From positions 1,407,501 through 1,471,500 of the forward strand of contig NZ_CP025135.1 in NCBI RefSeq assembly GCF_002833405.1: a stretch of DNA of 64,000 nucleotides, in the 5' to 3' direction. Below, piece after piece: positions 879 to 21,164 of the stretch (within the stretch, counting starts at the first letter, position 1; each line of letters starts with the position of its first letter). The notes beneath the pieces were generated by a model, which searched no databases, was not told the DNA's origin, and saw nothing but the letters and a program-made list of their open reading frames with translations. The stretch is from Planococcus sp. MB-3u-03 (lineage in GTDB: Bacteria > Bacillota > Bacilli > Bacillales_A > Planococcaceae). The position numbers and the translations under genes are program-made.

Positions 879-1481
879 ATGAAAAAGATAGGGTATGCAA
901 GGGTATCATCAACAGGACAAAACTTATCTGCGCAGATTAATCAATTGAAAGAAGCAGGATGTATTACCATCTTCCAAGAGAAAGTATCTGGCAGGAAGAC
1001 AGCAAACAGAGAACAGTTTAACAACTTACTTGATGCTGTCTGTGAAGGTGATACTATTGTTGTGACAAAACTTGATAGGTTTGCCAGAAGCACTAAGGAT
1101 GCATTACATACTATTGAGCTTTTAAATAACAAAGGAGTCTCATTGATTGTATTGAATATGGGAGGGGACAGAGTAGACACAAGCACAGCGATTGGTAAGT
1201 TAATGATAACGGTGTTATCTGGGATTGCTGAATTTGAAGCAGATATGATACGGGAGCGGCAAATAGAAGGTATAGCAGAAGCTAAGGCTAGAGGAGTGTA
1301 TAAAGGCAGACCGCATACTTATACAGAGAGGCATAGTGGCCTAAAGCACGCTATAGAACTGTATGAACAAAGAAAGACCAATAAGAAGACCGTAAAGGAA
1401 ATTGCTAAGATTACCAATATAAGCAAAGCAACTATTTATAGAGCAATAAAAGAGAAAAAAGAAAAGCGGCAGCTCTTGTAA
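879..1481 (+). CDS. serine recombinase, resolvase/invertase family
   Basis: 200-residue small serine recombinase that would cut and rejoin DNA at short crossover sites through a phosphoserine link. The N-terminal catalytic domain (about 1-140) opens with IGYARVSS, giving the conserved Arg8 and nucleophile Ser10. The central TKLDRFARS block holds the other conserved arginines, and a long E-helix region runs around EFEADMIRERQIEG. A short C-terminal helix-turn-helix (about 150-190, EIAKITNISKATIYRA) binds DNA. The length is normal for the Tn3-resolvase/Hin group. RBS-like gaagggtgg lies before the ATG. It sits in the AT-rich island and may be the island's mobility or dimer-resolution enzyme. 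No clear recombination sites were seen beside it. Confidence 0.93.
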   Translation: MKKIGYARVSSTGQNLSAQINQLKEAGCITIFQEKVSGRKTANREQFNNLLDAVCEGDTIVVTKLDRFARSTKDALHTIELLNNKGVSLIVLNMGGDRVDTSTAIGKLMITVLSGIAEFEADMIRERQIEGIAEAKARGVYKGRPHTYTERHSGLKHAIELYEQRKTNKKTVKEIAKITNISKATIYRAIKEKKEKRQLL

Positions 1482-1868: not shown

Positions 1869-2849
1869 ATGGATGATTTTTCTAAGGAGTTTAACCAACA
1901 ACAAAGAACAATAGATGCAATAGTGCAAGGTTGGAAAAGCCCAATTAAGGAGTTCAACCAACATCAAAGAACAATAGATGCAATAGTGCAAGGTTGGAAA
2001 AGTCCAATTAAGGAGTTCAACCAACAACAAAGAACAATAGATGCAATAGTGCAAGGTTGGAAAAGCCCAATTAAGGAGTTCAACCAACATCAAAGAACAA
2101 TAGATGCAATAGTGCAAGGTTGGAAAAGTCCAATTAAGGAGTTCAACCAACATCAAAGAACAATAGATGCAATAGTGCAAGGTTGGAAAAGTCCAATTAA
2201 GGAGTTCAACCAACATCAAAAGAACAATAGATGCAATAGTGCAAGGTTGGAAAAGTCCAATTAAGGAGTTCAACCAACATCAAAGAACAATAGATGCAAT
2301 AGTGCAAGGTTGGAAAAGCCCAATTAAGGAGTTCAACCAACAACAAATTGAATTGCAAAAGATATTGTCTTCTATAGAGAGTAAATCTAAAACACAATCA
2401 TTTGATTTTAGTGAAAGTTTATTGGTAGTGAATAATGTACTCGAGGATACACGCATTGATATTGAGACTAACGTGACGTCTAACCCAACTGAATTTGAGC
2501 AGGAATTATTAACATGGACGCATGAACAAATCGAGATTTTTCGAGCTAAGCAATTCTTTAAGAAACATGTGTAATGCAATTGATACTAAAATAGCAGGCG
2601 CATATATGGGATTTACTTAATAAAATAGCTACAATAATTGCAATTGTAAACTTTTGCAAGCAAACGAGCAAGATATTCATATTCATAATTACCACGATGA
2701 TGTAATTATAGAATCTGAGACTGATGGTAATAAGACTGATATATTGAGAAAAAGAAGACCAACATAAACTAAAATTTGAAAATGATAATGAAAAATATTC
2801 AGGTGGAGAGTACCTAGGAAAAATACCTTTATTCAAAAATGCGTACTAA
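1869..2849 (+). CDS. tandem-repeat protein, unknown function (frameshifted)
   Basis: The gene starts at ATG 1869 after a strong RBS (aggaggggaag). After a five-residue lead it encodes seven full and one partial copy of a 21-residue unit (KEFNQQQRTIDAIVQGWKSPI, varying QQQ/QHQ at one spot). One extra A in the sixth unit, near 2218, shifts the frame. The frame then continues through IELQKILSSIESKS to 2574. Further frame changes between about 2560 and 2770 would join a short hydrophobic stretch (KIATIIAIV) and a hydrophilic tail ending in GKIPLFKNAY at the TAA at 2847. Each unit has an amphipathic helix-like pattern, so the array may form a coiled or solenoid rod. The next gene starts 24 bases later with its own RBS, so the two are probably co-transcribed. 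I do not recognise the family. Confidence 0.6.
1884..2352 (+). repeat. 63-bp tandem repeat array inside a coding region
   Basis: Unit starts are at 1884, 1947, 2010, 2073, 2136, 2199, 2263 and 2326. All spacings are 63 bp except the sixth (64 bp, one extra A). Units are nearly identical and fall into subtypes by CAA/CAT in the QxQ codon and AGC/AGT in the serine codon. The order (Q-AGC, H-AGT, Q-AGC, H-AGT, H-AGT, H-AGT, H-AGC, Q) suggests recent copying, including of two-unit blocks. Because the unit is a multiple of three, copy-number changes keep the frame. Confidence 0.95.
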
Positions 2850-2873
2850 CAAGAAAGGTTTAAAGGAGATTAT

Positions 2874-4700
2874 ATGTCCAAAATAAAATTCTATTCTGAG
2901 TATAGTTTCGGTATGATGGAAGATTTAGAAAAATAGCAGAAAAGATTAACAACGAAGATATTGATGCCAAGTGGGATATTAATGATTTGTTGGAATTTCA
3001 TAATATTTTAAAATACATAAAGGTTGAAAGTTTTAGAGAGTATATTATCCAAGAAACTAAGATAGATATAAAAATACGAGGAAAAGATTAAGCGGAAAAT
3101 TGGTATCTTTCTAAGCAATCACAACGATGATTTTCTCCATTTATTCCACAATATCGACTTTGATAATTCAGATGACTTCTTTGAAGTTTTGAAGACTACA
3201 AGGTATATAAAAGCATTAAAGCGGAATGTCTCCAACAATTTTCGAAAAAGAAAATGTGCATATTTACGCGTTCCTAAAGTCGAAGAGGCTAACTAATTTT
3301 TGATGAGGTAGTTAGGAGTGTATTAATATCTGACCCTAGTAATGCAGAAATAGTTCTGTCAAAGTATTTAAAAGAAAATGAATTGTTCATGCCGCCTTCT
3401 TTGACAGAATCAGATATCTTAATTTTGATTCAAGAATATAGTTTCCCCACAAGTTAATACAAATGTATTAAGGAAAATAATCACTTTTCCACCTAATAAG
3501 GGTATGAAAATACCTGACAAAATCAAGTTGTATGCTAAGAGGAAAGTAAACGAAGAGGAGGAAAGGGTATTTGCTAACGAAACAGGAATCGAGTCTAGAA
3601 TAATGATTTCTTATTTGGGAGACCAAGAAGAAGAAGTCTCATTTAGAACGGAAGGTAGAAATATATCTATAAAGGTGAGTAAAAGTGGATTGAAGAAAAT
3701 ACTGATTACCCTACACTTTGGAACAATTTCATTTATCTATTTGGATTTGTTGATGAAACTATGAGGTTATTTCTCGATTCTAGAAAAGAAAGCTCTGCTC
3801 TAGAATCTCTATTTATCCCACAAGCAGCGCACTTATATTATAAATCATCCACTTTCGATACCAAAGAAATGGTGTCTAATATTCAGATACAGAGTTATGC
3901 TCAAGTTTTAAGGAGTTTTGGGGTAAATTTGGAAGAAATGATTGAATGGTTCTTCGACATTTATATGAAAGAAGAATTTCAAATTGATGATTTTATAGTT
4001 AAAATGCCGTCGACAGATGCATCTTACTTCGAAAAGTGTAGGACTATTCTGCCTGAGATAGATAGAATTTTAAACAGTATAATACTTTGGTTGAAGACGG
4101 AGTGATAGACCATGACTTAATCCAAATGTCATCTTCTAGTTTTAAAACTAAAGAGATTATATCCTTTAATAGAAAAATATGTTTATTCAACTAGTAATTG
4201 GTTTAAAACAGTTTCCAATTTATTGTTTTCTGACCAAAGTGGCATATTTCGTTTGCCGAACAGAAGTAAGAAACACTGAATTTTTCAACTTGATAAATGC
4301 TGAAAAGTTAAGTAAAAGTGAATTTCACGAACATCAATTGAGAAAGCTGCAATGGTTGTTTGATAACGATTTAATTTTGAAAGTTTCTCGGGTCATATTG
4401 AGTTTGTTGACTGGAAAACAATATATTCTTAAAGAACTCTATGATTCAGAAGTAATGAGTTACTGGCATTATCCTCATGAAATACAAGTATTAATTGAGG
4501 AGTTAGAAAGTCGAAATCTTGTTGATATAGAAACTAGTCTCTTTTCAAGAAACGAACAAGATTACATTGACTATTATCTAAATAAATCTAAGTTCACCAA
4601 TGGTCATGACATTCGAAATAAGTATTTACATGGAACAAATACTAACGATGAGAGAGAATATGAAATAGACTACTATATGATTCTTAAACTTTTGTCATAA
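2874..4700 (+). pseudogene. large unknown protein with C-terminal HEPN-like motif (frame broken many times)
   Basis: A good RBS (aaaggaga) precedes ATG 2874, and coding sense can be followed to the TAA at 4698 only by changing frame many times. The pieces are: MSKIKFYSEYSFG; RKIAEKINNEDIDAKWD; KYEEKIKRKIGIFLSNHNDD; DEVVRSVLISDPSNAEIV; NKGMKIPDKIKLYAKRK (3504-3764); a long piece 3761-4105; and 4260-4700. Joined, they give a protein of roughly 600 residues. Near the C-terminus is DIRNKYLHGT, an R-x4-H arrangement like the catalytic motif of HEPN RNases, as in several abortive-infection proteins. Frames end and resume within a few codons, as with random indels, and housekeeping genes in this window show the same damage. 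The real gene may therefore be intact. A defence role is inferred only from the motif and the island setting. Confidence 0.5.
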
Positions 4701-4849
4701 TAGTTCTTAAAATAAATGATGATTTATGTGTTAGAGGAGGGAAACAATAAACTTTAAAGTAAAAGTGATTACTGGAAAACTCATTTTAACGAGGCAATGA
4801 TTCCGTGTAAATAGAATGGTTAGCAGCTTAGTTGGTAAATAGGAATGAG

Positions 4850-5346
4850 GTGAATGTAATCGAAAACTTACAAAAAGAGAAAAGCGAAAAGAGCAGAGCT
4901 GAAGACATTATAGAAGGAATTAGTTTATCTATAGTATTTATAGGTATAGGAACAGCATTATATTTTGTGCCTACTTTCTTTTATTTTGAAATTCTCACTG
5001 TCATTGTAGGTGTAGTTTCTCTCTTGTAGTGGGATTATTATTTTGAGTATTGAATTGTCTAAAATGGGTGGGAAGAATATAGGTTTTGATGATTTAGGTT
5101 TGGGGTTAGGGTTTCTAATAGTATGGTCTTTCATCTACTTTTATTTCCTTTATACATGGTTGAACTTTATAAGTATCTTTATTTTGTTTTTGGAATGTAT
5201 GGCTTTGTAAGTGGTTTTAAAGTTGGTATATGGATTTTAAAAGAAAATGACAGCAAAAGTGAGATATTTGTAAAATAGGTCTTATAATCTTGCAAATTGT
5301 TGGTTTTATTTCAGCTGTATTAACAATAGTTAGTGCATTGAACTAA
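4850..5346 (+). pseudogene. multi-pass membrane protein, unknown (frame broken)
   Basis: Begins at GTG 4850 after ggaatgag (a TTG at 4832 is an alternative). A charged N-terminus (about 25 residues, Lys/Glu-rich) is followed by hydrophobic segments ISLSIVFIGIGTALYFV and ILTVIVGVVSLL. After frame changes near 5020, 5040, 5200 and 5275 come GLGFLIVWSFIYFYFLYTW, FISIFILFLE, FGMYGFVSGFKVGIWIL and a last segment IGLIILQIVGFISAVLTIV, ending at the TAA at 5344. This predicts five or six membrane helices. It follows the HEPN-like gene in the same direction and could be the third gene of the cassette. No family is recognised. Confidence 0.45.
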
Positions 5347-5451
5347 AATAAAGGATTGAGTTAAATAGAAATTAACATATAATAAGGAAAGAAGATAATA
5401 ACGGTCTTAGTTCGGGAAATGTTCTAATCCCACTTTCGTGAGGAAAGTCAT

Positions 5452-5524
<73 letters not shown>

Positions 5525-5527
5525 TCT

Positions 5528-11109: not shown

Positions 11110-13437
11110 ATGGCGAAGAAAAAAGTGACAAAACAAGTCCCGCTCTTGCCACTCCGCGGACTGCTCGTCTTCCCGTCGATGGTCCTGCATATTGATGTCG
11201 GCCGGGAGCGTTCAGTAGCAGCGCTTGAGCAAGCGATGATGGATGACCAAATCGTCTTTTTGGCGACCCAGAAAGATATGGCAGTAGAACAGCCAGACAA
11301 AGACGATTTGCATAAAATCGGTACTTTGGCTTACGTAAAACAAATGCTGAAATTGCCGAATGGTACGATCCGCGTGTTGGTGGAAGGCCTTGAACGCGGC
11401 CAGTGGAACCAGTACGAGGACGGCGAGAAATTCACGCAAGTGGAAGTGACGTCATTCCCGGATGAACCGGAGCGCGATGCAGAGCAAGATGCCTTGATGC
11501 GCATTTTGCTGGAGCAATTTGAAATCTTCGGCAAAGGCTCGAAAAAAGTGACGACCGAGACCTTCAATACAGTGGCAGATATCGAAGAACCTGGCCGTTT
11601 GGCGGACATGATCGCTTCTCATCTATCGCTGAAGTTGCAGGGGAAACAGGAAGTGCTTGAAACTTTCGATATCACGAAACGCCTTGAACTATTGATCAGC
11701 CGCCTGCATAACGAGCAGGAAGTGGCAGATATCGAAAAACGCATCAACGACCGCGTGAAAAAAGCGATGGAGCAAACCCAAAAAGAGTTTTATCTCCGCG
11801 AACAGATGAAAGCGATCCAAACCGAACTTGGTGACAAGGACGGCAAAGGCGCAGAAGTGGCCGACCTGAAAAAACGTATCGAAGAAGCCGGCATGCCAGA
11901 GTCGACCGAGAAGACGGCGTTGAAAGAATTGGACCGTTATGAGAAACTGCCATCCGCTGCGGCGGAAAGCGGCATCATCCGCAATTACATCGAATGGCTT
12001 GTAACGATTCCTTGGTCTGAAGCAACAGAAGACCGCTTGGATATCAATTATGCAGAAGAAGTATTGAACCGCGACCATGACGGCCTTGAAACAGTAAAAG
12101 AACGCGTACTTGAGTATTTGGCTGTCCAGCAGATGACCAAATCGCTGCGTGGGCCGATTCTTTGCCTTGTCGGGCCTCCGGGCGTCGGGAAAACTTCTCT
12201 TGCCCGTTCGATCGCCGATTCACTCGACCGCAATTTCGTCCGCATCTCGCTCGGCGGTGTGCGCGATGAATCCGAGATCCGCGGCCACCGCCGCACGTAT
12301 GTCGGCGCTATGCCGGGACGCATCATTCAAGGAATGAAAAAAGCAGGCACTGTAAATCCGGTATTCCTGCTTGATGAAATCGATAAAATGTCAAATGACT
12401 TCCGCGGCGACCCGTCGTCAGCGATGCTCGAAGTCTTGGACCCGGAACAAAACAATTCCTTCAGCGACCATTACATCGAAGAAAGCTATGACCTATCGAA
12501 TGTGCTGTTCATCGCGACCGCCAATGATCTCGGATCGATTCCAGGACCATTGCGCGACCGTATGGAAGTTATTTCGATTGCAGGTTATACAGAGCTTGAG
12601 AAGAAATTGATCGCCAAAAACCATTTGGCACCAAAACAATTGAAAGAACACGGCTTGACGCCGGAGCAATTGGATTTCCAAGAAGAAGCGTTCGTTTCTA
12701 TGATCCGCTATTACACGCGGGAAGCCGGCGTGCGCGGGCTGGAACGCCAAATCGCTTCTGTCTGCCGAAAAGTGACGAAGCAAATCGTTTCGAAAGAAAA
12801 AGAACAGGTGACGGTCGGCGCGGAAGAAGTCGAGAGCTATCTCGGCAAGAAGAAATTCCGCTACGGCGTGGCTGCAACACAAAACCAGATGTGGGTTGCG
12901 ACCGGACTTGCATACACCGATGTCGGCGGCGACACCTTGCAGATCGAAGTGTCGTTATCTGCAGGCAAAGGCAAGCTGCAATTGACCGGTAAATTAGGCG
13001 ATGTCATGAAAGAGTCGGCACAGACGGCGCTATCGTTTGTCCGTGCACAGGCAGAATCGCTTGGCATCGACCCGAATTTCCAGGAAGCACACGATATCCA
13101 TATCCACGTGCCGGAAGGAGCCGTTCCAAAAGACGGCCCATCCGCCGGTGTGACAATTGCGACAGCGCTCGTTTCAGCACTCACGAAGCGGCCAGTGCGC
13201 CGCGACGTCGGCATGACAGGGGAAATCACGCTTCGCGGACGCGTCTTGCCGATTGGCGGACTGAAGGAAAAAACTTTGAGCGCCCACCGTGCAGGATTGA
13301 AGACGATCATCGTCCCTGCGGAAAATGAACGCGACCTCGACGATATTCCGGAAACCATCCGTGAAGAATTGGAATTCCACCTCGTCAGCCAAGCAGAACA
13401 AGCGCTCGAAATTGCGCTGGAAGGAGCAAAAGAATGA
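11110..13437 (+). CDS. lonA: ATP-dependent serine protease Lon (LonA)
   Basis: 775 residues, the usual LonA length. The N-terminal substrate-binding domain (about 1-300, opening with [19 protein letters not shown]) is followed by an AAA+ module with Walker [10 protein letters not shown] and Walker [10 protein letters not shown]. The C-terminal protease domain carries the catalytic Ser in PKDGPSAG and the Lys in [13 protein letters not shown] 11110 follows gacggaggtg nine bases upstream; the ATG at 11089 lies before that RBS. The stop overlaps the engB start (ATGA), so the two are translationally coupled. It degrades misfolded and regulatory proteins in the cytoplasm. Confidence 0.97.
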
Positions 13438-14017
13438 AGGTCCATAAAGTAGAACTGGTGATTAGTGCGGTTCGTCCAGCGCAATACCCCGAAACCGAGC
13501 TTCCCGAGTTTGCACTCGCCGGACGCTCGAACGTCGGAAAATCGTCTTTTATCAATAAGCTGATAGGCCGTAAAAGCATGGCGCGTATTTCGTCCAAACC
13601 CGGCAAAACGCAAACTTTGAACTTTTACAAGATCGAAGAAGACTTGTTTTTGTCGACGTTCCAGGCTACGGGTACGCAAAGGTATCCAAAACCGAACGCG
13701 AAGCATGGGGCAAGATGATCGAGACATACATTACTAGCCGCGAACAATTGCGTGCAGTGGTCCAAATCGTCGACCTGCGCCATCCGCCGAGCAAAGATGA
13801 CCAGATGATGTATGATTTCATGAAACATTACAATATTCCGTGCATCATCATTGCGACAAAAGCCGACAAGATCCCGAAAGGCAAATGGGACAAGCACAAG
13901 AAAATCGTCCGTGAAGGACTTGATATGGAGAAAGGCGATCCATTAATCGTCTTTTCTTCCGAAACTGGGCTCGGCCAAGAAGCCGCCTGGCAGGAAATCG
14001 AAAACGCATGTAAATAA
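13434..14017 (+). CDS. engB: EngB/YsxC ribosome-assembly GTPase (frameshifted)
   Basis: Small GTPase needed for late 50S assembly; about 194 residues when repaired. G1 is GRSNVGKS, the switch region GKTQTLNFY follows, G3 is in DVPGYGYAK, and G4 is ATKADK. A one-base loss near 13652 (tttttgtcgac where a further G is needed) cuts the frame in the DxxG segment. Reading resumes as [14 protein letters not shown] and runs to the TAA at 14015. Because the gene is essential in B. subtilis, a sequencing error is more likely than a true break. It overlaps the lonA stop by four bases and is followed by a strong terminator. Confidence 0.93.
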
Positions 14018-14046
14018 GTAGGCAGTTCACCTTACTGGCTTGAAAT

Positions 14047-14093
14047 AAAACAGGGCCCGGAAAATCAATGATTTTCCGGGCCCTGTTTTTTGT
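14047..14093 (+). terminator. terminator of lonA-engB
   Basis: aacagggcccggaaaatca and tgattttccgggccctgtt form an almost perfect 19-bp stem followed by six T. Confidence 0.95.
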
Positions 14094-14900
14094 TTTGCAA
14101 ATAGTAACCAGCTGAAATATATGGACGAGATAATTAGATAAGTGGAGTGAGATAGATTGGTTTTGTAGGGTTCGTTTGAGATAGCCGCCTCCCGCTTAGG
14201 GCATGCCTCTTGCAATAGGCCGAGAAGAGCACTCGGCTTATTGCATCGGCTCGGCTTTTAGATTTCATTGGATGTTATTTGTGAGGAAGTGTCACTGTTA
14301 GTTGTCTTCATCAGCTTGTGGGAACGCTTATTTAGACTTGATAGTTATGAACCTGTGTGGCTATTCAATTTGGATTTACGAAGCTGAACAAAATTCATCA
14401 CACTTACTTCAATGTGTGATGAATTTCATTTCCTCGCTAAAACTAGAGATGGAGCGGAAGGAGGCGACGCCGGAGGGACTGCGCGGGCTGGCGAGACAAA
14501 TGTGCCGCGCACTTTGGCACATTGGCTCAACACCCGCCCCTCGGCAAGCGTCCTCCCTGAAGCGCAATCTCCACCACATACATCTCCTACTTAATTTTGA
14601 TAATATACATATCTTTTTCCTAATTCAACACCATGAAAATCATCATTCATTGTGCATAAGTTCACAGTTAATTCCGACTACGAGCGTTATACTTGTGACA
14701 CCATAATCGCTTTGCTAGAATTGTAATTAGCTTAAGTTTAGAATGATTATAAAGTGGAGTTTCCACAGCGGAAACCCTTGTACGATAAAGCAAAGTTCAA
14801 GTAGGTTCATGCCTTGTTCACAAAATCGCAGGCATAATCTGATGGAAAAGTGGTATACTTAGGGAAATGAAATATTGAACGCGAAAGGTGTTTTAAGCCC
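14094..14900. other. 800-bp intergenic region before hemA
   Basis: No convincing gene. It contains a stem-loop around 14211-14247 (ttgcaataggccgag and ctcggcttattgca), a degenerate copy of the dispersed repeat (14450-14565), and a short hairpin gtttcc/ggaaac near 14760. The likely hemA promoter is an extended -10 (tggTATACT, 14851-14859). The open frame 14302-14706 has no RBS and runs through the repeat. Confidence 0.5.
14450..14565 (+). repeat. dispersed intergenic repeat, divergent copy 2
   Basis: ggagcggaaggaggcgac at one end and agcgtcctccctgaagcgc at the other are inverted. The interior (gctggcgagacaaatgtgcc...ggcacattggctcaac) differs from the main family but has the same frame of blocks. 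Confidence 0.5.
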
Positions 14901-16283
14901 ATGCATACACTCGTAGTCGGGGTCAACTACCGTTCAGCGCCTGTATCGATCCGTGAGAAGCTATCGTTCATCGAAAGCGAGCTTCCACAAGCGATGCAAG
15001 CCCTGCAACAACAAAAAAGCATATTGGAGAACGTCATCGTATCGACATGCAACCGTACGGAGATCTATGCCGTCGTGGACCAACTGCATACCGGGCGTTT
15101 TTACGTGAAGCAATTTTTGGCTTCCTATTTCGACATTCCGATGGAGCAGTTCTCCCAGTATTTATTCCTTCATGAACAGGACGAAGCAATTGATCATTTG
15201 TTCCGTGTCACTGCCGGAATCGATTCGATGGTCCTTGGCGAGACGCAGATCCTCGGGCAAGTGAAATCGAGTTTCCTCGCAGGCCAGGAAATCGGCACAA
15301 CGGGAACCGTCTTCAATCAATTGTTCAAGCAAGCGGTGACGCTGGCGAAACGTGCGCATAGCGAAACAGCGATTGGCGAGAATGCCGTATCGGTTTCCTA
15401 CGCAGCGGTCGAGCTTGGCAAGAAAATCTTCGGTTCATTGAAGAACAAGCATGTCGTCATTCTCGGGGCAGGGAAGATGGGCGAACTCGCCATCAAGAAC
15501 CTGCAAGGAAGCGGAGCGGACCGCATCACGGTCATCAACCGCACATTCGAGAAAGCGGAAGTGCTCGCCGGTAAATTCGGCGGCACGGCGAAACCTTTGA
15601 ATCAATTGCAATGCGCCTTACTGGAAGCGGACATCCTGATTTCTTCTACTGGCTCGACTGATTTTGTCATCGACCTCGAATTGATGCAGTTTGTCGAGAA
15701 GCTGAGAAAAGGCAAGCCATTGTTCATGGTCGATATCGCGGTACCGCGCGATATGGATCCGCGCATCGGCGATCTTCAGAACGTCTTCCTATATGATATT
15801 GATGATATGCAGGGCATTGTCGAAGCGAATCTCGCTGAACGTGAACGTGCGGCGAAACAAATCACCGGCATGATCGAGCAAGAAGCAGAGCAGTTCAACG
15901 ACTGGCTTGGTACGCTCGGCGTCGTTCCGGTCATTTCCGCACTGCGTGAAAAAGCGCTTGGCATCCAGGCGGAAACGATGGAAAGTATCGAGAACAAAAT
16001 GCCGGATTTGACGGATCGCGAGAAGAAGATCCTCAACAAGCACACGAAATCGATCATCAACCAATTATTGAAAGAGCCGATTTTGCAGGCCAAGGAAATG
16101 GGTACGGCCAAGAAATCACGCGAACAGCTTGAATTGTTCATGCAGATTTTCGGCATTGAAGATGAAGTCGAAGAACAGCGTGAAAAACAAGCGCTTGCGA
16201 CGCGCCAAAAAGCGGAGCGTGCACGCCTTGAAAAGCAACAGGAAGCACTGCAAGGACAAGAAAATCCAGGCTATACTGTATAA
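14901..16283 (+). CDS. hemA: glutamyl-tRNA reductase HemA
   Basis: 460-residue enzyme that reduces glutamyl-tRNA to glutamate-1-semialdehyde with NADPH, the first committed step of haem synthesis by the C5 route. The catalytic Cys is in [12 protein letters not shown] near residue 50. [10 protein letters not shown] and the nucleotide-binding [13 protein letters not shown] follow, and a C-terminal dimer domain ends in a charged Gln/Glu/Lys tail. RBS gcgaaaggtg precedes ATG 14901. It heads hemA-hemX-hemC-hemD-hemB-hemL, the standard Bacillales haem operon. Confidence 0.97.
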
Positions 16284-16444
16284 AAGCATTTCCAATTGGC
16301 GTGGATTTTCATCTCCATCGCCGTAAATGACCCAACTGGGCCGCGAAAGCGGGATAGAGCTATCTTATAATGAGGCGTTTTCGAATCTATATGTTAAAAT
16401 GTAGAGGCGAAACGCCTTTAATTATGGAAACGAAGGGGAATAGG

Positions 16445-17275
16445 ATGGCTGATATAACAATGGCAAGGCTGCATGAAGCTATGGTTATACTATATGCTAT
16501 CAGCCTTGTCTTTTATTTTGTCGATTATTTATATACTACGAAAAAAGCCATCCGGATCGCCATGTCACTTCTTGGGGCCGTGTGGTTATTGCAGACCGTG
16601 TTCCTGGTGCTCTATATCATCGAGACGCAGCGCTTCCCGGTACTGACTTTGTTTGAAGGCATTTATTTCTATGCGTGGCTATTGGTTACGCTATCGCTCG
16701 TCTTGCGGATTTTCTATCGCTTCGACTTTGCGGTATTTTTGATCAATATCATCGGATTCATCTTTATGGTTATCCATACTTTTGCGCCGGTCCAGATCGA
16801 ACGGTCGCCGGTCGGGGAAGCTTTGGTGTCGGAGTTGTTGTTCATCCACATCACGTTCGCCATCCTGTCTTATGCCGCATTTTCTCTGTCGTTCGTCTTT
16901 TCCGCGCTTCACTTGCTGTTGTACAGGCTGTTGAAGCAGAAAAAATGGACGAAGCAATGGAGCAGCTTGCCGTCACTCGGGCAGACCGAACAGGGCATGA
17001 CCATTTCCATCCTGGTCGGGATCCCGATGTTGTTCGTCTCTCTCGTTCTCGGCTTCCAATGGGCAGTGGTATCATTGGAGGAATTTTCCATTTTAGATGT
17101 AAAAATTGTGGGTTCGTTCATCCTGTTGATTGTCTATAGCTTCATTCTATGGCGTCACCGGCGGGGCAACTTGAATGGCATGAATTATGCCTGGGCCCAT
17201 TTGTATGCATTTTTGTTATTGCTGCTTAATTTCTTTTTCGGCAGCCGTTTATCGGAATTTCATTTTTGGTATTAA
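16445..17275 (+). CDS. hemX: HemX, membrane protein of the CcsA type, negative effector of HemA level
   Basis: 276 residues with about eight hydrophobic helices, starting with LHEAMVILYAISLVFYFVDY. It belongs to the cytochrome c assembly (CcsA/CcmC-like) superfamily. In B. subtilis HemX lowers the amount of HemA. The start is taken as ATG 16445 after gaaggggaatagg; an in-frame upstream ATG at 16370 lacks an RBS. It lies 160 bases after hemA and 18 before hemC, in the middle of the haem operon. Confidence 0.9.
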   Translation: MADITMARLHEAMVILYAISLVFYFVDYLYTTKKAIRIAMSLLGAVWLLQTVFLVLYIIETQRFPVLTLFEGIYFYAWLLVTLSLVLRIFYRFDFAVFLINIIGFIFMVIHTFAPVQIERSPVGEALVSELLFIHITFAILSYAAFSLSFVFSALHLLLYRLLKQKKWTKQWSSLPSLGQTEQGMTISILVGIPMLFVSLVLGFQWAVVSLEEFSILDVKIVGSFILLIVYSFILWRHRRGNLNGMNYAWAHLYAFLLLLLNFFFGSRLSEFHFWY

Positions 17276-17293
17276 TAGAAAGGTAGGATTCAG

Positions 17294-18222
17294 TTGAGAA
17301 AAATCATTGTAGGGTCAAGAAGAAGCAAGCTTGCGTTGACGCAAACCAACCAATTCATCGAGAAAATGAAAGCGGCAGGTGCGCCGTTTGAATTCGAGAT
17401 CAAGGAAATCGTCACAAAAGGCGACCGCATCCTGGATGTCCAATTGTCGAAAGTAGGAGGCAAAGGGCTATTCGTGAAAGAAATCGAGCAGGCGCTTTAT
17501 GCCAAGGAAATCGATTTTGCCGTCCACAGCATGAAAGACATGCCAGCTGTTCTTCCCGAAGGTTTTGTCATCGGCTGTATCCCGGACCGTGAAGACCCGC
17601 GCGATGCATTCATCGCGAATGATCATGTGAAATTGATGGATTTGCCAGTTGGCGCTGTCGTCGGCACAAGCAGCTTGCGCCGAAGCTCGCAGCTTCTTTT
17701 ACTGCGCCCGGACCTTGATGTCCAGTGGATCCGCGGAAATATCGATACACGCCTCGCGAAGCTCCATGCAGGAGATTTCGATGCCATCATCCTGGCAGCA
17801 GCCGGATTGAAACGCATGGGCTGGGGCGATGACATCGTCACTGAATTCATGACGACAGAAGACTGCCTGCCGGCAATCGGCCAAGGCGCACTAGCCATCG
17901 AATGCCGCGAAGACGACGAAGAGCTTCTGGCGGAACTTGCGAAAGTGAACGATAAAGAAACAGAGCTTGCCGTCACGGCGGAACGTAAATTCCTGAAAGA
18001 CATGAACGGCAGCTGCCAAGTGCCGATTGCGGGATACGCGACGGTTTCAGGTGATGAAATTTCGTTCACAGGATTAATCTCAGCCCAGAAGGCGACCAAG
18101 TGTATAAAGAATCAGCGGCTGGAAAAGACCCGATTGAAGCGGGCCGCATCGTAGCTGAAAAAACGAGTGCACACGGCGGATATGATTTGATCCAGCGTGT
18201 CATCGCAGAAAGCAATGTGTAA
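17294..18222 (+). CDS. hemC: hydroxymethylbilane synthase HemC (frameshifted near end)
   Basis: Porphobilinogen deaminase, joining four porphobilinogens into hydroxymethylbilane; about 309 residues when repaired. The N-terminus [17 protein letters not shown], the substrate-binding Arg block ([10 protein letters not shown]) and the dipyrromethane-cofactor Cys in NGSCQVPI are all present. A one-base loss near 18081 diverts the frame. The true C-terminus ([20 protein letters not shown] ... [10 protein letters not shown]) is readable in the neighbouring frame to the TAA at 18220. TTG 17294 is the start, after gaaaggtagg. The stop overlaps the hemD start. Confidence 0.93.
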
Positions 18223-18901
18223 GAAAAAACCGGTCATCATTTTTACCGGCAGCCGGCTACCGAAAGAAGCGGCAGAGCTGGCACAGCAAAACGGGGCGCA
18301 AGTGGAATATTTTCCGCTGATCGAAACGGTGTTGCGAAACACATATGCGCCTGATTTCGAACGTTACGGCTGGCTTATTTTCACGAGCCGCAATAGCGCA
18401 CAAGCATTTTGCAAGCTGCGTCCCGAAATTCATGCAAAAATAGCGGCTGTCGGCGATAAGACCGCTGAAATGCTTGAAGAACACGGCTATACGGTCGACT
18501 TCATCCCATCAACGTTCAGTGCCGATGTCTTTGTCCAGGAATTTCCGGACATCGCCGGCAAGGAACGCTGTTTGCTTGTCCGGGGGGCTCTCGCCAAAGA
18601 CACCATTTTGTCGATGCCTCTTGCGATCGATGAATGGACCGTCTACGATACCGTCAAAAAGCACAGCAACGCACAAGCGCTCGCCGGGATGTCCGATGTC
18701 ACGATTATTTTCGCCAGCCCTTCGGCAGTTTCCGCTTATACGGAAGCGGGCGGGAATTTCAAGAACATCAAGACTGCCGCGATTGGGCATATTACTGAAC
18801 GAGCCATTACGGAAGCAGGGGGAGAGGTCGATTTCCGCCCTGAAACCTATACCTATTTTGAAATCATCCAGACAATAGCGAAAGGAAGTTGCAACTTATG
18901 A
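18215..18901 (+). CDS. hemD: uroporphyrinogen-III synthase HemD
   Basis: 228-residue enzyme that closes and isomerises hydroxymethylbilane to uroporphyrinogen III. Sequence in this family drifts widely. Recognisable parts are the opening [24 protein letters not shown] in the first half, and the C-terminal [14 protein letters not shown] and [19 protein letters not shown] 18215 overlaps the end of hemC, and GTG 18197 in the same frame is possible. The stop overlaps the hemB start as ATGA. Position between hemC and hemB confirms the call. Confidence 0.93.
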
Positions 18902-19878
18902 AAGACTTGAAATTCGATCGCCACCGCCGTTTGCGCGGTTCAGCGAATCTTCGTGCAATGGTCCGTGAAACTTCTATTCAAAAAGAGGATTTCATTTACC
19001 CAATATTTGTCGTGGAAGGCGAAAACTATAAAAAAGAAATTTCTTCGATGCCAGGAGTCTACCATTATTCAATTGACCGCCTTGGCGAAGAATTGGACGA
19101 AGTGGTCGAGCTCGGCATCCCGTCCGTCATTCTTTTCGGTGTTCCAAAAGATAAAGACCCAGTCGGTTCGCAAGCTTATCATGACCACGCGATCACGCAA
19201 GAAGCGATCCGTTTTGCCAAACAGCGCCATCCGGAACTCGTTGTCATTGCCGATACATGCCTGTGCCAATATACAGACCATGGCCATTGCGGCGTCATCG
19301 AAGACGGCGTCATCTTGAACGATGAATCGCTCGACCTGTTGGCGCGTACAGCAGTATCCCAAGCGAAAGCCGGGGCAGACATCATTGCGCCATCGAACAT
19401 GATGGACGGGTTTGTCGCAGCGATCCGCTACGGTCTTGATGAAGCAGGATTCAGCCATATTCCAATCATGTCATACGGCGTGAAATATGCTTCCGCTTAT
19501 TACGGCCCATTCCGCGAAGCGGCACACTCAACGCCTCAATTCGGCGACCGCAAAACCTACCAAATGGACCCGGCAAACCGCATGGAAGCACTGCGCGAAG
19601 CATCATCCGATGTTAATGAAGGCGCAGATTTCATGATCGTCAAACCGGCCTTGTCTTATCTTGATATTATCCGCGAAGTTCGCGATAACTTTGACATCCC
19701 GATCGTCGCTTACAATGTTTCGGGCGAATACGCGATGGTTAAAGCAGCCGCGCAAAACGGCTGGGTCGATGAAGAAAAAATCGTCCTTGAAACTTTACTC
19801 AGCATGAAACGTGCTGGGGCAGATATTCTGATGTCGTACCACGCAAAAGACGCGGTACGCTGGCTGGAGGGAAAATAA
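18898..19878 (+). CDS. hemB: delta-aminolevulinic acid dehydratase HemB
   Basis: 326 residues. It condenses two 5-aminolevulinates to porphobilinogen. Zinc ligands are seen as [14 protein letters not shown]. The two Schiff-base lysines are in [10 protein letters not shown] and [15 protein letters not shown] 18898 is chosen because aaaggaag stands before it. The four-base overlap with hemD and the two-base gap to hemL indicate one operon. Confidence 0.97.
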
Positions 19879-19879
19879 T

Positions 19880-21164
19880 ATGGGATACGAACACTCTAAA
19901 CAAGCATTCGAAGAAGCAAAACCACTGATGCCAGGCGGCGTCAACAGCCCGGTGCGCGCCTTTAAATCGGTCAATATGGAACCGATTTTTATGCAATCCG
20001 GCAGCGGAGCAACCATTACGGACATCGACGGTAACACGTATATCGATTACGTCTTGTCTTGGGGCCCGCTGATTCTGGGCCATGCCCATCCTGAAGTGGT
20101 GAAAGCCATCCAGGAACAGGCAACACTTGGCACTTCATTTGGCGCACCGACGATCCTTGAAAACGATATGGCAAAACTCGTCCAAGAGCGCGTGCCATCA
20201 ATTGAAATGGTCCGTATGGTATCGTCCGGTACAGAAGCGACGATGAGCGCACTTCGCGTAGCGCGGCTATACAGGACGCAACAAGATCCTGAAATTTGAA
20301 GGCTGTTACCACGGCCACGGCGATAGCCTGTTGATCAAAGCGGGATCTGGCGTTGCGACACTCGGCTTGCCGGACTCACCAGGCGTTCCGGAATCAGTGG
20401 CGAGAAACACGATCACGGTTCCTTATAATGATTTGGAAAGTGTGCGCCTTGCGTTTCAGGAATTCGGCGATGACTTGGCGGCAGTGATCGTCGAGCCGGT
20501 TGCCGGCAATATGGGCGTCGTGCCGCCAGCTGAAGGATTCCTTCAAGAGCTGCGCAACTTAACGCATGAAAACGGAACGGTCTTGATCTTCGATGAAGTC
20601 ATGACTGGCTTCCGCGTCGGCTATAATTGTGCACAGGGCCATTACAGCGTCACGCCGGACATGACATGCCTCGGCAAAGTCATCGGTGGCGGTTTGCCTG
20701 TCGGCGCATTCGGCGGCAAGCGTGAAATCATGGAACAAGTCGCACCAAGCGGCTCGATCTACCAGGCGGGCACATTGTCCGGAAACCCGCTCGCGATGCG
20801 TGCAGGCTTTGAGACTTTGTCGCGGTTGAACGAAGCAAGCTACGAAACATTCGTTGAACGCGCAGACCAGCTGGAAAAAGGTTTCCGCGAAGCGGCTGAA
20901 AAATACAATATTCCGCACACGGTCAACCGTGCAGGCTCGATGATCGGTTTCTTCTTCACAGATCAGGAAGTGACGAACTTCGAGACAGCTTCCAGTTCCG
21001 ACCTCGAATTGTTTGCGGATTATTACCGCTTGATGGCGGAAGAAGGCATTTTCCTGCCGCCATCCCAGTTTGAAGGCATGTTCTTATCGACTGCCCATAC
21101 ACCTGAACATATCGAACGCACCGTCCAAGCATTCCATAATGTGTTTGCAAAACTGGCGAGATAA
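19880..21164 (+). CDS. hemL: glutamate-1-semialdehyde aminotransferase HemL (frameshifted)
   Basis: PLP enzyme that turns glutamate-1-semialdehyde into 5-aminolevulinate; about 428 residues when repaired. The PLP lysine lies in [17 protein letters not shown], and the family opening is [14 protein letters not shown]. Near 20268 the expected ALRVARGYTGR is broken: gcgcggctat stands where gcgcgcggctat is needed (loss of two bases in a GC repeat). Frame resumes as [23 protein letters not shown] ctggaggg precedes ATG 19880. Last gene of the haem operon; a terminator follows. Confidence 0.93.

Follow-up and report, generated by a model that had tools for sequence, protein, structure and literature searches.

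A homologue of the catalogued HEPN-type defence candidate PDC-S56 on a tRNA-Arg island of Planococcus sp. MB-3u-03

We analysed a stretch of 64,000 nucleotides from Planococcus sp. MB-3u-03 (the window; C13:1407501-1471500 in an assembly of 13 contigs and 3.6 Mb) in which a gene for a tandem-repeat protein, a large gene and a gene for a membrane protein follow one another on the same strand. Judged by its sequence, the large protein is a new copy of PDC-S56, a HEPN-type family of defence candidates that PADLOC already catalogues, so the original prediction that no described system covered this set does not hold for its central gene. The explanation that we find best, and on balance probable, is that an island integrated at tRNA-Arg carries as cargo PDC-S56, which would be an abortive-infection-type ribonuclease (RNase), beside unrelated accessory genes. 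It is based on family membership of homologues by profile, conservation of a motif, the predicted fold and the mobile context, from which we infer the mechanism.

The large gene and its island

The large protein has about 625 residues and is separated from the repeat gene by 24 bases containing AAAGGAG. The PADLOC profile for PDC-S56 was run on intact homologues and matched three of them over nearly their full length (E 2.3e-198 to 4.6e-229); the window copy joins the family through L057, an intact Bacillus pakistanensis protein of the homologue set with which it aligns at 67%. Using the C-terminal piece (4179-4700) as query identified relatives in 7 of 200 genomes of the family, its own included, four of them in open frames of 646-665 residues. 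A database search in which the 7995 candidates sharing most words were scored gave at least 178 homologues at E <= 0.001 (120 of them listed). According to a passage in PMC11811056, the PDC names stem from Payne et al. 2021; in the open-access library searched we found no paper on PDC-S56 by name and no anti-phage experiment with it, and one paper for DUF4209. At least two homologues are called DUF4209 in public records, and the DUF4209 / C6orf70 HEPN family has the RN-x3-HG motif in common with PDC-S56, yet five intact homologues had no match to DUF4209 (PF13910) up to E 0.1 and none to any Pfam family above cut-off, DUF4209 was not matched in the own genome either, and profile comparison was weak.

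The R-x4-H motif predicted near the end of the large protein was borne out by its relatives. Its R, N and H are kept in all 70 relatives with letters at that place (one more is gapped there), and the spacing falls within the R-x4-6-H of HEPN domains. In structure prediction the modelled C-terminus looks HEPN-like, and the top VIA-align row is the C-terminal HEPN of AbiA (8oz7), with 121 residues aligned over the AbiA HEPN domain. The model further places a winged-helix-like insert inside the predicted helical bundle, which suggests nucleic-acid binding. AbiA differs in this insert, in its Rx6H motif (PMC11077055) and in the reverse transcriptase, for which the PDC-S56 homologues have no Pfam match.

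Alternatively, the C-terminal domain may be a HEPN without catalytic function, or some other helical domain that binds nucleic acid; the protein would then be a regulator or structural component of defence. Two points weigh against an RNase here, namely that no RNase activity was seen with the AbiA HEPN, which functions in dimer formation (PMC11077055), and that the predicted insert points to nucleic-acid binding. However, the R, N and H kept throughout the relatives are kept likewise in catalytic HEPN domains (a passage in PMC3710099), and we consider the non-catalytic alternative unlikely.

All three genes lie in an island of 14.0 kb with a GC content of 33%, compared with 49-51% in its flanks, so that the three same-direction genes in an AT-rich island with a serine recombinase were described correctly at the outset. 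The island is bounded by two tRNA-Arg copies whose starts are 14,124 bp apart and which share an exact core of 72 bp, and its left end contains a piece of a tyrosine integrase with a broken frame; with this integrase piece and an attachment site duplicated 14.1 kb apart, it has the features of an integrative island. Four further reading frames of the island, which encode 138-423 residues and include the serine recombinase, are uninterrupted, and no hsd gene was recognised in it. Feature coordinates are collected in Table 1.

Table 1. Features of the window discussed in the text (window coordinates)
Feature	Position	Strand	Remarks
Serine recombinase, resolvase family	879..1481	+	open frame, 200 aa; Pfam Resolvase E 5.3e-43
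Repeat protein gene, frames broken	1869..2849	+	21-aa repeats, then C-terminal part; stop 2847-2849
Tandem array, 7.4 copies of a 63-bp unit, 97% matches	1883..2347	+	repeat analysis
PDC-S56 homologue, candidate HEPN-type RNase	2874..4750	+	14 frameshifts, no in-frame stop vs L057; ATG at 2874
RNKYLH, R-x4-H motif (R-N-x3-H)	4614..4631	+	near C-terminal end of large protein
Membrane protein gene	4850..5346	+	5 frameshifts; relatives 167-168 aa, 65-67% identity
tRNA-Arg(tct), right-hand copy	5451..5526 (duplicated stretch listed as 5440-5526)	+	other copy at island left end, L016:8816-8902

A 261-bp probe for the tRNA site matched in all 46 genomes of the genus. Ten other genomes have a single match that starts at base 1 of the probe and ends at 257-261, and one more genome has a match spanning bases 2 to 260; the sites of these 11 look unoccupied. 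In G172 and G219 about 2.6 kb of other DNA separates the tRNA from the next part of the probe, with one tRNA match listed, and in G097 about 12.6 kb separate two copies of the tRNA. The G097 insert encodes a SIR2 protein with matches to the ThsA and Dsr2 profiles, a DUF2326 protein with a match to PDC-M68B, and an integrase together with a serine recombinase, which look similar when compared by eye. The large protein retains its standing as a defence candidate, both as PDC-S56 and as cargo of a mobile island whose insertion site holds defence-type genes in one relative.

Broken reading frames

All three genes are broken in this assembly and, as had been anticipated, their frames need correction. 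Aligned with L057 (414 of 618 aligned residues identical), the large gene shows no in-frame stop among its 14 frameshifts; with two other references the frameshifts number 15 and 13, again with no stop. The window copy also retains 45 of 45 test residues (found in L057 and conserved in at least 90% of the 71 relatives aligned), in an alignment that may change frame freely and thereby favours matches. When the same method was applied to the copy in G087, it showed 17 frameshifts and 7 stops and retained 20 of the 45 conserved residues; its motif lacks the R and the N, and that copy looks like a real pseudogene. Five of the 14 breaks lie at most 9 bases from a run of five equal bases, as against 4.4% of random positions. 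Compared with two close genomes, murI, ysxC, hemC, hemL and a fifth gene are broken in the same assembly; we take the fifth to be MarR-like, although nothing in NCBIfam matches it at E <= 1e-20. The pieces of murI match at 58-59% only and one contains five stops, so murI may be worse off than indels would make it.

Since no stop interrupts the large gene, its conserved residues are all kept and hemC and hemL are broken too, errors of assembly are likelier than decay on this sequence evidence. A decayed remnant, with real breaks in genes that lost their function once they had arrived, would account for a density of breaks (14 in about 1.9 kb) above that of the compared core genes, for the island frames that remain open beside broken ones and for the precedent of G087. 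The first two of these points weigh against assembly error, but both could result if polishing was uneven across AT-rich sequence. Against decay stand the missing stops with all three references, the kept residues, the breaks near five-base runs and the four named core genes broken in the same assembly, and we regard it as improbable. The broken frames of this assembly should not be taken as gene decay without better reads.

The broken core genes, which include murI, ysxC, hemC and hemL, are located at L016:6071-7280 and at 13434-21161 of the window and suggest widespread indel errors.

The two adjoining genes

The 21-residue repeat protein, the large gene 24 bases on and the ribosome-binding-like sites can all be read in the sequence as first described. 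The repeat gene has one frameshift within the array and an estimated 4 in its C-terminal part, where relatives are about 33% identical. A database search with P0121 (242 residues, Lysinibacillus) as query provided a second relative, P0122 (212 residues, Sporosarcina). Both are intact; each has near-identical repeats of its own, built on an SPxKxxxQ core, and a C-terminal part that contains one hydrophobic segment. The C-terminal part of the window protein scores 109 and 112 in alignment with P0121 and P0122, whereas 12 shuffled versions of the P0121 part score between -21 and -59. Two further weak matches of the window repeat fragment (E 3e-4 and 6e-4), within 834-residue frames, were read as coiled-coil noise.

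The third gene aligns full-length with two intact database relatives that hold several hydrophobic segments, in keeping with the membrane protein first described. It has no in-frame stop relative to P0124 and one relative to P0125.

Neither neighbour appears to be tied to PDC-S56. Scanning of genome contigs gave at least 78 PDC-S56 loci, to which five from the first search were added and from which two duplicates were removed, leaving 81 distinct loci; the repeat protein was near PDC-S56 in none of the 83 listed (81 distinct), and a search with alignment A4 detects it in just one genome besides the own (2 of 261 in the family). A 58-residue piece of the membrane protein matches only the own genome among the same 261, and P0125 matches in 8 of 398 genomes of the class, the own included, with distant relatives lying in other families. 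PDC-S56 was present in none of the four P0125-match loci opened, of the seven other than the own. The window copy accordingly differs from other copies in its broken frames and in two neighbours not seen beside them.

The trio was not found together elsewhere in the searched collections, which left uncovered the contigs of the two closest membrane-protein relatives and of the Sporosarcina repeat protein. With this co-occurrence seen only here, a sensor-effector-membrane system, which the original prediction had staked on finding the three together in other genomes, is not supported, and the repeat and membrane proteins are most likely separate accessory genes that adjoin PDC-S56 by chance. A true three-part defence, in which a membrane-anchored repeat protein would sense infection, PDC-S56 would cut RNA and the small membrane protein would be a partner, has in its favour the shared strand, the short gap between the first two genes, the ribosome-binding-like sites and the occurrence of such genes side by side in several arrangements, since the repeat protein in G195 lies 370 bp upstream of the 221-residue protein P0123 and a P0123 homologue in L024 lies 197 bp from PDC-S56 on the opposite strand; given the separate distributions of the three genes, we hold it to be very improbable. 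What is new, as far as sequence comparison goes, is this copy of a known family on a mobile island.

A conserved family of about 220 residues with the motif RNTVH or RNTIH (L022:7776-8441, L024:7144-7803, L167:6058-6723) adjoins the repeat protein in one genome and PDC-S56 in another, and has no match above cut-off in the libraries scanned.

PDC-S56 relatives and type I restriction loci

PDC-S56 loci gave 150 first neighbours, of which 147 were kept after dropping one longer than 4500 bp and two from L017; 146 were scanned, and 8 match the type I specificity domain, 10 ResIII and 8 phage integrase. At least 15 of the 81 loci have a type I hsd gene in the fetched flank, and in at least seven (L066, L073, L074, L076, L082, L084 and L088) PDC-S56 lies between hsdS and hsdR, with both directly adjacent in L076, L084 and L088; the counts are lower bounds because contigs end inside the flanks.

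This position recalls PrrC, an anticodon nuclease of a type IC restriction locus that shares the HEPN-type motif; prrC itself is located between hsdS and hsdR. Passages in PMC3710099 and PMC12707154 describe prrC as embedded in an hsd locus. PrrC and RloC have an N-terminal ABC ATPase fused to HEPN, whereas none of the five intact PDC-S56 homologues scanned has a Pfam ATPase match, and the island of the window copy, unlike a PrrC locus, has no recognised hsd gene.

In the mechanism we favour, the helical N-terminal part of PDC-S56 and its winged-helix insert would together restrain the HEPN RNase until phage infection releases it; the freed protein would then cleave host or phage RNA and growth would stop, as in abortive infection. 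Where it lies between hsdS and hsdR, PDC-S56 may, by analogy with PrrC, back up restriction. A bolder proposal, possible but doubtful, is that PDC-S56 is a second, independent HEPN lineage in a PrrC-like place within type I restriction operons, that a winged-helix domain interrupts the bundle of this RNase and senses the state of DNA or of the HsdS-DNA complex, that PDC-S56 also travels alone on islands and prophages, and that the membrane-anchored repeat protein is a local partner acquired in this Planococcus island.

A gene that looks like rlmH lies 78 bp (L024), 1.0 kb (L021) and 5.6 kb (L020) from PDC-S56, in the regions L024:8001-10490, L021:9157-12586 and L020:2313-10325; rlmH is an integration site of staphylococcal cassettes. 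Just upstream of PDC-S56 at L020:3853-8241 is a 1462-residue protein, part of which matches PDC-M54A (E 9e-11).

An apparently novel cassette is thereby assigned to a catalogued but little-studied defence candidate, with a likely active site and domain plan indicated, and the link between PDC-S56 and type I restriction operons is testable. If true, the position in restriction operons together with the split bundle would make PDC-S56 a PrrC-like guard.
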